DNA of 64,000 bases from Astropecten irregularis (lineage: Eukaryota > Echinodermata > Asteroidea > Paxillosida > Astropectinidae). The translations under genes and the position numbers were made by a program. The stretch spans positions 16,352,499 to 16,416,498 of the forward strand of contig OZ020250.1 of the NCBI GenBank assembly GCA_963971285.1. The letters run 5' to 3'. Shown piece after piece: positions 25,001-31,000 of this stretch; the first letter of the stretch is position 1; every line of letters begins with the position of its first letter. The notes beneath the pieces were generated by a model. The model did not search any database, had not been told where the DNA came from, and saw nothing but the letters and a program-made list of their open reading frames with translations.

Positions 25001-28000
25001 AACAAGATCATTGTCATTTACAAAATCCAAATAAAAAGACCGATCACTCCTTTGTTTCACTGTCCATGAAAAAACAAGAACCACGAATTATAATTTTTTT
25101 CATACTAAACAAAAGAAACGAAAAAGAAAACAAAAGTGACTGATGAAGTGTCACAGTAACATAATGCACAGGAAATATGACCTGAAAGGAAATAAAGGGC
25201 TCAGCATATATCCTCTTCCGGTACGTTATATTCCTTTTGCTTGTTGTGGTGAACACAGAACATTAATACATAATCATATGGCAATTCTCAAAATCTTTAC
25301 AGAAAGTTAACCTTTTTCTCCAGGGAAATACAAGATAGGCCTAAACATAGAGGAAAATACCGTGTTAATTCAATTTTATTATTATTATCCATGCACAAGG
25401 CTTTCCATCCCTCTTGATGTGGGATACATAATTCATACAGATCAGGTTTATTATAGAAAGGAAAGGGTTTTTCATCGCGGCAGATACAGATGAGGAAAAA
25501 AGGTGATCAAAGTCACGCAATGTTGTGTCGCATACCAGCAACATGTTTATTATGCTTCTTGCATAATCACAACTAGACTTTATAATGTAGCAAATAGTAT
25601 GTACAGTGTTAATGTTTATACATGAACTTGTGCACAGCACATACAGACTGTGCATGCAAGCCAGGCTGCAGTGGAGCTGGCTCATTATTTATGCAGACAT
25701 TATTTATGCAGACAGTGACTTTGGATGTTGACCAGATGCATGTATTGTAATGTAATGTAATGAAATATTGATTGCGTGCTGCAGGGGAGTTCCCCATTGC
25801 TTGGGGCTGGTACGCAGGCTGAGCTAACAGGCTAAATCAGGCGTAGCTGGTGTACTGAGGGGAGTATTTATAAGCACGTTGCACAGGCGGATCCAATCTC
25901 TCGCTCCTGCTCTTTCAACCTGTTTGTGCTGTCTGTTCCAAAGAACACTACAAGCGTTGCTGGTGATGCTGGGGTGAGTAGCTGCACCTTGTACTATCCG
26001 TCCTGATGTCCATTTGATTAATGTTGATTTATTTGATTTGTAGTGAAGTGAAATGATTTTTGTTTTGGTACCATTGTGTCAATGAGATAGGAAAGGCAGG
26101 CTAAGCTCAAGATACTCCTTTGGTTGACTGATGGTGGGAACACTCGCTGTCTGGAATGTCTTGTAACCTAGGCGATGGGTGCGAAAATTGCTCAGATGAT
26201 GATAAAAGTATGACAATTTTCGCACATGTCTGTCACATCATTCTAAACGTTTTCAGTGGCAGAGCCAATGCAAGCTGTACATAACATAGCAACGGTTGCT
26301 AAGCAACATATTTTCCATAGAAACCAACATGTCAGATGGCTGCAGACTAATTTTACCAAACAATTTTAATGTATTTAAATATTTCCATCTTTCCTCTTCA
26401 TACAACACCCTGGAGCATCTGCAATAATTATACACATCATAACAACAGTTGCTAGGCAAAACATCTTCCTTAGCAACAAAGCATATTTGATGTCTGCAGG
26501 CCAATTTTACTAAACATAACAATGTATTTTAATATAGCATTAGTATTTGGGATATTTTCAATCTGGAGCTAAAGTCAACTGCATTTGGCTTTATAATGGT
26601 TGCTAGGCAACGCATTTACCTGATTTTATTACCTGTCAGTATTGGCCTATTTCTAGAGAATAATGAATCCCATGCCGTACAGCAGAAAATTGTGGTCCAC
26701 TGTAAGGGCAAAAAAACAAACAAGTTCCCACAAAATTCACAAATTTGCTTGTAATTTGACGACCGACACTTGCAACCTTTCACAAACCTTCTGATCAGCT
26801 GTGAAACAAATTCAAGATCTGATGACAATTACATGACGTTATACAGCATCGAGAGTGACAAGTTTCATCATTGAACCAGACACACTACTGACGCCTTATC
26901 TTGTCCGAAGATGGCTCAAGCAAGCCCAGACACGATTGGTAAGTGGCAGTTGGTTTTATTTATTGACTTGCTTCCTCCCATTCTCCCCTACACTGAATAC
27001 AAATTTTAAGTTTGTTTCTAAACCAGCCTCACAAGTTTCATAATGGCTAATTCACTCAACTCAAAGTCACATTTTCTTTCTTTTTTTGACTCGACACACT
27101 CCTATTTTTATGGGCCTTTTTATGGCACTTATTTAATAACGGGGTGTAGCTTCTAAATGTGATGGTATTTGGTGATGATTCTTGGGCGTATGGGGTGTTA
27201 TCCTACAATTGTGAAACAAAAAGATATGCCCACTCTGCTTCGCAGGCTGAAGGAGCAATTGCCATTAATTTTGCAAATTAGGCTTGCCCTTCGAATGTCA
27301 TTCACTTTGAATATAACCTGCCTTGTATTTAACCCACAACTTTAACTTTTGTCTTCCTTTTCAGTGACAATGGGACAAATGATCACGAACATCAAAGATG
27401 ACATCAAGACATTCACTGCAACATGCCCTCTACAGGACACATGGCCAAATAAATCCATTTTGGTTGCCAATGATCAAGTGTATTACAATTCAGAAGTTTA
27501 TCATGCAGAAGTTATTGCCATACAAGCAATGTGCAATGAAAACCCAAAGCATGTCGAAATGTACATTAATTATTCTCCATGTAGAGAATGTGCCAGAGTG
27601 ATAAATGAATTTCAGGAAAAAACTGGGGCTAGAATTGAAATCAAATATGCCTCAGTATATTATCGGAAAGGGAGTGAAACAAACAGCAATGGGCTGAGAC
27701 ATTTGCTGGGATTGGAAGAAAATGGAATAAGCATACATGCTTTCAGAGGTAGAGACTGGAAAACTATCATCCAAAAGATTCTGACAATCCGTGGCAAATC
27801 TCTCCTGAGAAATATCATTCGACACCAAGAGGGGTCCACGTGGGGGGAAGTATACAATGCAATTTGCCATGAAATTGGGGAGGATATAGGTGACCATGGC
27901 GGTGTAGTGCAAGGTATGGCGGCCATGGCCTTGGAAGACCAGCCAAACCAATGGCTGACTTCTTTGAGGAATATTCTTCAAGAAAACTGGATTCAAGGTT

Positions 28001-31000
28001 GCGAGACTGTAGTAAGAAACATAAATGAGACATTGAGGTGGGAAACTGTCTTGAAGTGGGTTCTCAAATGCGAATGGGGGGAAGAATGGGAAACAAAATG
28101 GAACAACATTGTCCAATATATAGGTGAGGTAAATTTTGATGAATGGAAACAAGCCACAGGGATTCTGGTTAATGTACATGAATTCCCCATGGATAACGGT
28201 TGGGAAGACAATTTGAGACAAGCTATTTGGGTACATGTAATAGACCCGAAAGTAAAAATGCAAGAAGAACACCTTTCTCAGGGAAGGGCTCCTAATTTGA
28301 ATCGAATTCTAAGGGATTTAGAGAATGAAGATAGACAGGGCTACTCCTGGTTGAAGAAGCTGCTTTTTGCAATTAGGGATTATGATAGGAACACTCCACA
28401 CTGGCTTAATCGGCGAATTGTGGCAGACCTAGTGGCAGCACACGAACGAGAGTACTGCAATCACCAGCAATAATACATTTTATCAATTGAAGATAAAATC
28501 ATTTATACTCAGTGACATACTAGTTGGTTTTTTTAATTGTATAAGTCAGCGACTGGTTTCAAGTCTATGCTTGAAGGGTAGATACAGCTAAAAATAGATA
28601 TAGGTTGGAAAGTTCTAGAGCTGATCAGTTATTACCATATAAGGCAATCCTTGGGCAATGCAAATGAGATGCCGATATATGCAAATATAGCAAGGCCCCT
28701 ATCCAGAGTTGCCAACATTGAAATCCAAAAAATAGTAGCATTTGAAGCGCGAAGCCCCTACCGGCACAGCGAGCGCCCCGGGGTCCGGGTCCCACTCAAA
28801 AACCATCTTAACATTTTAACTATTATGCTCTGTGTGTGGTGCATTCTGAGCAGTTTTTGACCACATACTTAAACTAAAGCTGAATGACAGATTCAAGGCT
28901 GATAAAGTGATACTGATAGGGCCTAACGTTAACTATTTTTCATTGTAAAAAATCCACAAAATGCTTTAACAAGTTATGAAAAAAAGAAAAGTTTTTACCT
29001 TTTTAGTTTTATTCTGAGAACTATTGTACAATGAACATGGACAATTCCCCAATTGGCCTACCCATTCTACATTAATTGTGTAGATGATTAGACTTTTTGT
29101 GATGAAGCTCCTCAACGTCCTTGATCGCGGAAGAATAAATAGGCCTCCACAGTACACAATTTATTTTGTGTACGTCTAACGTTAGAGCCTACATCACGAA
29201 GAATTCCATGACTTTTCATCCACTTCTTTTTCCAGCCAGTCCCGCTTTCGTCCATTTATGTTAACACCTTGATCAATGATTTTGGCATATTCTCCCTTGT
29301 GGATGTCTTGATCGATGATATATTCTTCCTTCTACATCTAATTTCTAACATTCTACGTCATTTTGACATGTGCGGTTGCTATTTCGATTTAGGCCGATCC
29401 GTACGACAAGCGTCCATACAAGTCGGAGAGTGGCTTAGTACCCACATCCCAATGTATCCATTAACGCGACTACCACATACATGGAACCAGACTATCAGTG
29501 TAATAGTCAACAGAGCTAGAGAGGGCGCTATCAGTAGGGTCTGTTTCCTGCCCTATTTAGCCTCATTTAAAAAGGTGTACACAAAACACGGAGCCAGACG
29601 ATATTCTTTATTTTTCTGACTCTCAAACTATACTATACTGTACATGTACTATACTATACAAGTTTTGCGTGATGTTTGCGTCTCGTTCGCTGCTTTTAAT
29701 CACAATGGCGGTCTACACATTAAAGACGGTTTTTCTTCCATTTTATTTATTACTCATTTATTTCTTTTTAATCATGTTTACATCCATAGTTCACAGATAA
29801 AAGCCATGGGCAGTTTGTTTTGCGTAGTAAAATGCAGTCTTGGCGTTGTGTCGTAGTCATTGCTCAAATTCATATTTGCTACGCCCAAATCGTATATGTT
29901 GGCAACTCTGCCTATCCAATCAGGAAAAAGGTGGAAAAACGTGTAACCAATGAGAGAGCTTGCTGTATCCAGGGACACTGGGGTGTTTTTGTGACATGCA
30001 GTATATTGCTTCACTTTGTCACAGCCTATTGCACAAGCAGCACTTTGTTGTTGCGCAATTAAAATATTTCCCTCCACCGCCCCAACCTCCTCCGTCTCTG
30101 TTGAAGGATAGGCATAATTTGGACGGGATGTACACAGCCAATGGTTCTTATTTTACACAAATAAACAATGTTTATTGCGTAATTTGCAAAGTTGATTATT
30201 TCAAGTTTGGAATGGTATGATATTTGAATTACATTTGTAACAAGCAGTTATAATAGTGCCGCGAGGTTCCCCGCGGGCTATTCTACTTCTGACTGTATGT
30301 TTCCAATGGTCAGAATTTATAGGCCTTTTCCCACTTGACCAATCTCGGGGGTGGCCCCGGGGTGACGCAGGGGTGAAAATAAGCCACGATTCCCACTGGA
30401 AATGTTCACCCCTCCATCACCCCCGAGATTGTCTCCGGGGTTAGTTCAACCCTGCTCGGGACCAGGGTTGAAATGTTCACCCCGGGGTGGCGCCGGGGTG
30501 AGTTCGCCCCGGGGATGAGTGCTCTAGTGGGAAAAGGCCTTATGACTGCTTGAGTTCTACAGGATGATTTTGCCTTTGTACTTAACATGATTATTCATCT
30601 TTTTGGGGATTGTTCTGGAATTCTTATAAATAACATTTAAATTTAGCTATGGGGTATCCCAAGTTTGGTTACCAATTGTATGGATCAGGTGTATCCCTGT
30701 GAAAATGGTTGGGATCAGGTGTATCCCTATATTGGTGGGTGTGTCCGGTTTGCCCAGACAATTTGGAATCCGGCACAAGGCAAATAAAAAATATTCAAGG
30801 TTGTGGCCTTCAATCAAATAACTTGGAATCCGAGTATAATTCAAGTGCAGACTCACAACCTCCCCACTCCCCAAAACAATAACTCCAAACATACAATGAG
30901 TATATCTTTCAGAATGCCAAGAGATGCAAATAGTCCATTCTGACGAGTCAATTTCTTGTTGATATCTAATGGAGCTGAGCGTTCACGGGTCATTTAAGAA

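Follow-up and report, generated by a model that had tools for sequence, protein, structure and literature searches.

AID/APOBEC-like deaminases have already been described in invertebrates. In the sea urchin Strongylocentrotus purpuratus, according to the excerpted text of PMC5956068 (the form in which this source is cited throughout), SpAIDL deaminases with an HxE-PCxxC site occur in several copies, at least two of them are mutators in E. coli and their expression is highest in the gut; SpAIDL1 and SpAIDL4a have 193 and 194 amino acids (aa), respectively, with no long tail. The same text reports DNA mutation in E. coli by SpAIDL1 and by LaAIDL1 of the brachiopod Lingula anatina, the genes for both being enriched in the gut and LaAIDL1 being a longer protein with tandem deaminase domains. 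It gives the vertebrate AID/APOBEC motif as H[AVS]E-x(24-36)-PCxxC and describes APOBEC2 and APOBEC4 as lacking an assigned activity. The SNAD proteins have a signal peptide, SNAD4 being reported from sponges only in the excerpted text of PMC11004436.

We analysed a window, i.e. the whole stretch of 64,000 nucleotides, from the sea star Astropecten irregularis (assembly GCA_963971285.1, contig OZ020250.1, positions 16,352,499 to 16,416,498). A gene at 26911..28473 encodes an AID/APOBEC-like domain with an intact catalytic site, followed by a long tryptophan (Trp)-rich tail, and a second, strongly diverged copy with an open frame is located 59 kb away. We estimate at roughly 0.55 the probability that the gene encodes an active cytosine deaminase, probably of immune function, that is under pressure from an arms race. 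Two numberings are used: the catalytic glutamate, Glu58, is counted in a joined frame of 378 aa, the borders of domain and tail in a reading of 367 aa. The protein is made of the following parts.

27463..27798, + strand: deaminase domain of the AID/APOBEC-like type (residues 32-143 in the 367-aa numbering), matched by Pfam SNAD4, NAD1, APOBEC_N and others
27502..27591, + strand: catalytic site HAE-x22-PCREC, kept in the paralogue
27799..28470, + strand: unrecognised Trp-rich C-terminal tail, residues 144-367, with no Pfam or PDB-sequence match, kept in the paralogue

The protein thus resembles the SpAIDL deaminases of another echinoderm in its HxE-PCxxC site and its presence in several copies, whereas it differs from SpAIDL1 and SpAIDL4a by the tail and by a site spacing of 22. 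Like LaAIDL1 it is a longer protein with an AID/APOBEC-like domain, but the extra length of LaAIDL1 is a second deaminase domain and the sea star tail has no deaminase-profile match. SNAD4 and NAD1 (PF18750 and PF18778) are the best-scoring profiles for the catalytic domain; in contrast to the SNADs, the window protein has no hydrophobic N-terminus. The locus had been proposed as a candidate new system, which the analysis does not show. Invertebrate AID/APOBEC-like deaminases, including those of sea urchins, are already described (PMC5956068); on present evidence, it is a variant of these deaminases with a long unrecognised tail. Among the literature matches listed, at the level of titles and abstract beginnings, no report of a sea star AID/APOBEC-like deaminase or of a deaminase-CARD fusion was found, although one may exist.

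An HAE...PCREC core in AID/APOBEC strand order was the starting claim of the preliminary description, which also suggested a profile search against metazoan deaminases. A six-frame scan of the window with the pattern [HC][AVSP]E-x(15-50)-PCxxC retrieved a single site, at 27502-27591. In the Pfam search, nine of the 15 listed families exceeded their curated cut-off, namely eight AID/APOBEC-group models and the general dCMP_cyt_deam_1 model. The five best models, SNAD4 (E = 3.3e-12), NAD1 (1.1e-11), APOBEC_N (1.1e-11), APOBEC4 and APOBEC2, ranged from 3.3e-12 to 1.4e-9, so that the deaminase-profile match lies far beyond chance; the match with APOBEC3 sequences of solved structures was weak, with a best whole-sequence E-value of 1.2e-4. 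At the level of sequence, the assignment of the N-terminal domain to the AID/APOBEC-like deaminases is therefore supported. As several models score alike and APOBEC4 scores best for the paralogue, no clade can be named. Three other readings were rejected. For a bacterial toxin-type deaminase, the Pfam match stayed below the cut-off. For a tRNA deaminase, the ADAT2-like exon of the genome (assigned by eye) lies elsewhere and is matched by SNAD4 below threshold. For a viral origin, five IMG/VR stretches matched a pattern, and none of them encodes a relative.

We found the second copy at C14:16439148-16440296, inside a tandem segmental duplication. Genome searches with SNAD4, NAD1 and APOBEC_N gave the same two loci over the cut-off, the window gene and this copy; the best candidates were scored with exons taken singly, a procedure in which distant members could be missed. 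The first duplication unit is given below.

25569..55550, no strand assigned: duplication unit 1, its counterpart spanning about 82720-110635 in window numbering, past the window end and in the same orientation

The paralogue keeps the catalytic residues, the splice sites and the tail, and it has large insertions and, as it seems, one more exon, 54 bases long and in frame; its predicted isoelectric point is 8.3, compared to 5.7 for the window protein. Disruption of catalytic residues in a homologue, raised earlier as a possible objection, is not seen, all zinc-binding and catalytic residues being kept. Two divergent copies that both have an open frame and share the splice sites and the catalytic residues give indirect support to the earlier proposal that the gene would be a functional member of the family. 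Twelve of the 15 colinear blocks of the duplication are 91-98% identical, and the three at and just before the gene are 88, 93 and 84% identical. When half-kilobase bins were ranked by divergence (52 bins, each with over 100 aligned sites), those at 27000, 27500 and 28000 came first; they hold the coding exon and the last part of the intron. Most of the duplication outside the gene differs by about 0.2-10% per bin, and the gene stands out as a local maximum of 15-18% in which silent sites take part. This contrast speaks for a reading in which the second copy is an allele that the assembly has set in tandem, and the locus would then hold a very divergent polymorphism. We consider this unlikely, as both copies are on one 23-Mb contig of the 475.7-Mb assembly in the same orientation, the units being some 27 kb apart with a 4.3-kb repeat array in the interval, and the second copy has its own large insertions and 54-base exon. 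The array itself, at 63007 to about 80083 (beyond the window end), consists of about four tandem copies of the 4.3-kb unit at 98-99% identity. An open frame of 659 aa with a reverse transcriptase domain, long interspersed element (LINE)-like, at 51839-53818 on the - strand, is present in the first duplication unit and missing from the second.

The divergence of the pair was compared with that of three control exons of the same duplication: one assigned to ATIC by Pfam and two named by eye, the first of these also from ATIC and the other FBXL-like. The deaminases share 232 of 356 codons at the protein level (65%), whereas the controls share 83/84, 44/44 and 72/72, i.e. 199/200. Non-synonymous divergence (dN) was 0.233 and synonymous divergence (dS) 0.213 for the deaminase pair, a ratio of 1.1 with a bootstrap interval of 0.77-1.66, compared to a dN of 0-0.005 and a dS of 0.033-0.106 for the controls. 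The change in the deaminase protein is thus far above the protein change of its neighbours, and it is also above their silent change. This fast divergence beside static housekeeping genes is what fits a gene of host-parasite conflict. The frames are not decaying: in a neutral simulation with 105 random substitutions, only 0.52% and 0.26% of 5000 frames stayed open, and the gaps of the DNA alignment are multiples of three, except for one 42-base gap split by the aligner into 38 + 4. Self-mutation by the gene's own product was looked for as an excess of transitions in the gene-holding block, and none was seen (98 transitions, 121 transversions).

Several observations weigh against the reading of an active enzyme shaped by an arms race. 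A model as general as dCMP_cyt_deam_1 exceeds its cut-off too, and the spacing of 22, found in both copies, is two residues short of the 24-36 of the family motif (PMC5956068), for which reason the protein is filed as AID/APOBEC-like in the broad sense only. The structure models are of very low confidence, AlphaFold run without an alignment on the 367 residues giving a predicted local distance difference test (pLDDT) score of 36. Since the interval of dN/dS includes 1, positive selection is not proven; silent sites of the deaminase are raised too, and relaxed constraint, gene conversion of the flanking DNA or alleles that predate the duplication could play a part. A dN/dS of about 1.1 would also suit a pair of currently functionless genes, decaying or under relaxed constraint, but this is quite improbable given that both frames are open, that open frames this long seldom survive by chance, that the gaps keep to threes apart from the 42-base one, and that the splice sites and a promoter-like stretch are kept in both copies. 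Finally, several of the sea urchin paralogues were inactive in the same E. coli assays (PMC5956068). Together with the APOBEC4 model being best for the paralogue, and APOBEC4 and APOBEC2 passing the cut-off for the window protein too, this inactivity might point to a structural or regulatory paralogue devoid of deaminase activity, like APOBEC2 or APOBEC4; the zinc and catalytic residues, all kept in both copies, speak against it and we regard it as rather unlikely.

Under the preferred reading of a working deaminase, the N-terminal domain would turn cytosines of single-stranded DNA or RNA into uracils by means of Glu58 and a zinc bound by one histidine and two cysteines; deamination of cytosine in single-stranded nucleic acid is expected by analogy with SpAIDL1 and LaAIDL1. 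No hydrophobic N-terminus was found, the highest 19-residue hydropathy mean in the first 60 residues being 0.43, with no signal-peptide program run; the enzyme is therefore probably intracellular. Its likeliest role would lie in innate immunity, directed at nucleic acid of foreign or mobile origin, the tandem pair with fast-diverging proteins being of the kind found among host-parasite conflict genes.

The tail has 14 Trp in 239 residues (5.9%), compared to one in the first 139 residues, and 12 of these Trp are identical in the paralogue. No Pfam family exceeded the cut-off with the tail, the sole listed match up to E = 10 being a sub-threshold MtrG (0.09); no match up to E = 10 was obtained against PDB sequences with a two-sequence profile, and NCBIfam did not recognise it. 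The low-scoring MtrG, PepV, Cas1_II and phrog_32215 matches (Pfam, NCBIfam, PADLOC and PHROGs) were taken as chance. Across the genome, only the two copies matched, the next matches having E-values of 7.5 and 8.1. The tail had been described as Trp-rich, helical and unrecognised: the first and last of these hold, and helicity comes from very low-confidence models, the structure predictions having given a pLDDT of 36 for the 367 residues and 45 for residues 126-226. The tail is about as long as a second domain, and it could be a degenerate second deaminase domain as in the tandem APOBEC3s and in LaAIDL1 with its two domains (PMC5956068). This origin appears very improbable, as in neither copy does the tail match a deaminase profile, and no HxE-PCxxC is present there. 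The tail, long stretches of which are identical in both copies, is likely to be an aiming or assembly part; it would most likely act as a helical interaction module that serves targeting, partner binding or assembly, and the earlier proposal of a role in targeting, partner binding or oligomerisation is a reasonable one.

The first third of the tail was compared with death-fold domains, and the profile comparison is suggestive only.

27799..28035, + strand: candidate CARD-like segment (segment 1), residues about 144-222

A CARD-like death-fold domain at this place would link the enzyme with signalling of the RIG-I/MAVS type or with the assembly of filaments. Against CARD profiles from the same genome, segment 1 gave E-values of 0.006-0.013, aligned at the same CARD position, and its score was reached by 1/59 and 0/60 shuffles and by 0/87 natural windows. 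The segment of the paralogue behaved alike (0/87 windows, and 1/155 in the run with a wider profile), and with the wider CARD profile the single sequence gave an E-value of 0.009 with 0/155 windows reaching its score. No such signal was seen for segment 1 with DED, 45 of 60 shuffles reaching that score. We take the end of the segment, by eye, to be like that of the CARDs of RIG-I and MAVS. On the other side, the wider profile gave for the pair an E-value of only 0.02-0.026, reached by 1/155 windows, and one true DED scored higher; the HHalign probability was 2-6%, neither Pfam CARD nor CARD_2 matched the tail up to E = 10, and Foldseek with the low-confidence model of residues 126-226 (pLDDT 45) returned nothing significant, with no CARD among its 12 weak matches. 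The profiles contained six of the seven CARD_2 loci in one test and four in another, and 10 of the 13 DED hits; the wider CARD profile omits L051, L052 and L055, which are repeats of loci already included. Compared with the CARDs of RIG-I, MDA5 and MAVS, segment 1 shows a weak profile resemblance, but the tail has neither a Pfam CARD match nor structural support, and a CARD-like domain is doubtful. About as doubtful is the fuller proposal of a sea star fusion between a polynucleotide deaminase and a CARD-like signalling or filament module, which would be an editor of foreign nucleic acid directly coupled to RIG-I/MAVS-type innate signalling and which conflict with viruses or mobile elements would preserve as a fast-diverging pair. 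Other assignments in the tail were rejected: for DED in segment 2 the score was reached by 4/60 shuffles, the middle tail (222-300) gave no CARD signal, and a second CARD in 286-366, which the narrower profiles had made look possible, was dropped, its score with the wider profile being reached by 9-10 of 155 natural windows and, for the segment of the paralogue, by 5/87 and 18/155.

The gene model, including the extra exon of the second copy, was deduced from DNA and is a prediction. Only two coding exons are present in the window gene, and splicing 26911-26938 to 27365-28473 reproduced from the window DNA the 378-aa open frame, with the catalytic glutamate at residue 58, that the preliminary description had given. 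ATG, GT donor and AG acceptor occupy the same places in the second copy, a conservation that supports the proposed 26938/27365 junction. The elements of the gene are as follows.

25869..25874, + strand: TATAAG box of a promoter-like stretch, with a putative function and the same box in the second copy
25974..25979, + strand: GTGAGT splice-donor-like site that would close a putative non-coding first exon, GTAAGT at the equivalent place in the second copy
26799..26938, + strand: putative exon 2, with a 5' untranslated part, ATG at 26911, 28 coding bases and GT donor at 26939, the left border (26799) being placed at an AG by eye; ATG and donor kept in the second copy
27365..28473, + strand: main coding exon up to the stop TAA, an open frame whose acceptor AG is kept in the second copy

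Three palindromes of GTTGCTA(A/G)GCAA type are located upstream of the coding exon at 26295-26317, 26448-26470 and 26599-26621, with a spacing of about 152 bases; they resemble RFX X-boxes.

Elsewhere in the window, an open frame of 809 aa at 2404-4833 (- strand) with P-element/TNP-like transposase domains looks like an uninterrupted transposase, and minisatellites with 23-, 22- and 5-base units are present at 20744-21072, 36267-36553 and 50244-50498, respectively. The mitochondrial contig of 16,335 bases has, as read by eye, cox1, nad4L, cox2, atp6, cox3, nad3, nad4, nad5 and cob on the same strand, with nad1, nad2 and nad6 on the opposite one. The position of nad4L behind cox1 marks echinoderms. 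The inversion of nad1 and nad2 is as in starfish, whose mitochondria are separated from those of sea urchins by a 4.6-kb inversion with 16S, ND1 and ND2 (PMC3308324, excerpted text). This gene order makes a sea star host very probable and led to the rejection of an amphioxus origin; a search for a fluorescent-protein match gave nothing either, although little follows from such a negative. The remark in PMC10354150 that amphioxus has no known AID/APOBEC homologue therefore does not concern this locus. Beside this contig, contig C131 (L046) has a COX1 match with no stop codons in a 552-aa frame and is probably bacterial, and a COX1 stretch with seven TGA codons at C25:9951047-9952018, on a large nuclear contig, is probably a mitochondrial insertion.

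AID/APOBEC deaminases are the basis of antibody diversification and of virus restriction. A sea star deaminase pair that is joined to a long unrecognised module and changes far more quickly than the adjacent genes would provide a handle on whether ancient members of the family were antiviral effectors and on how they were aimed.

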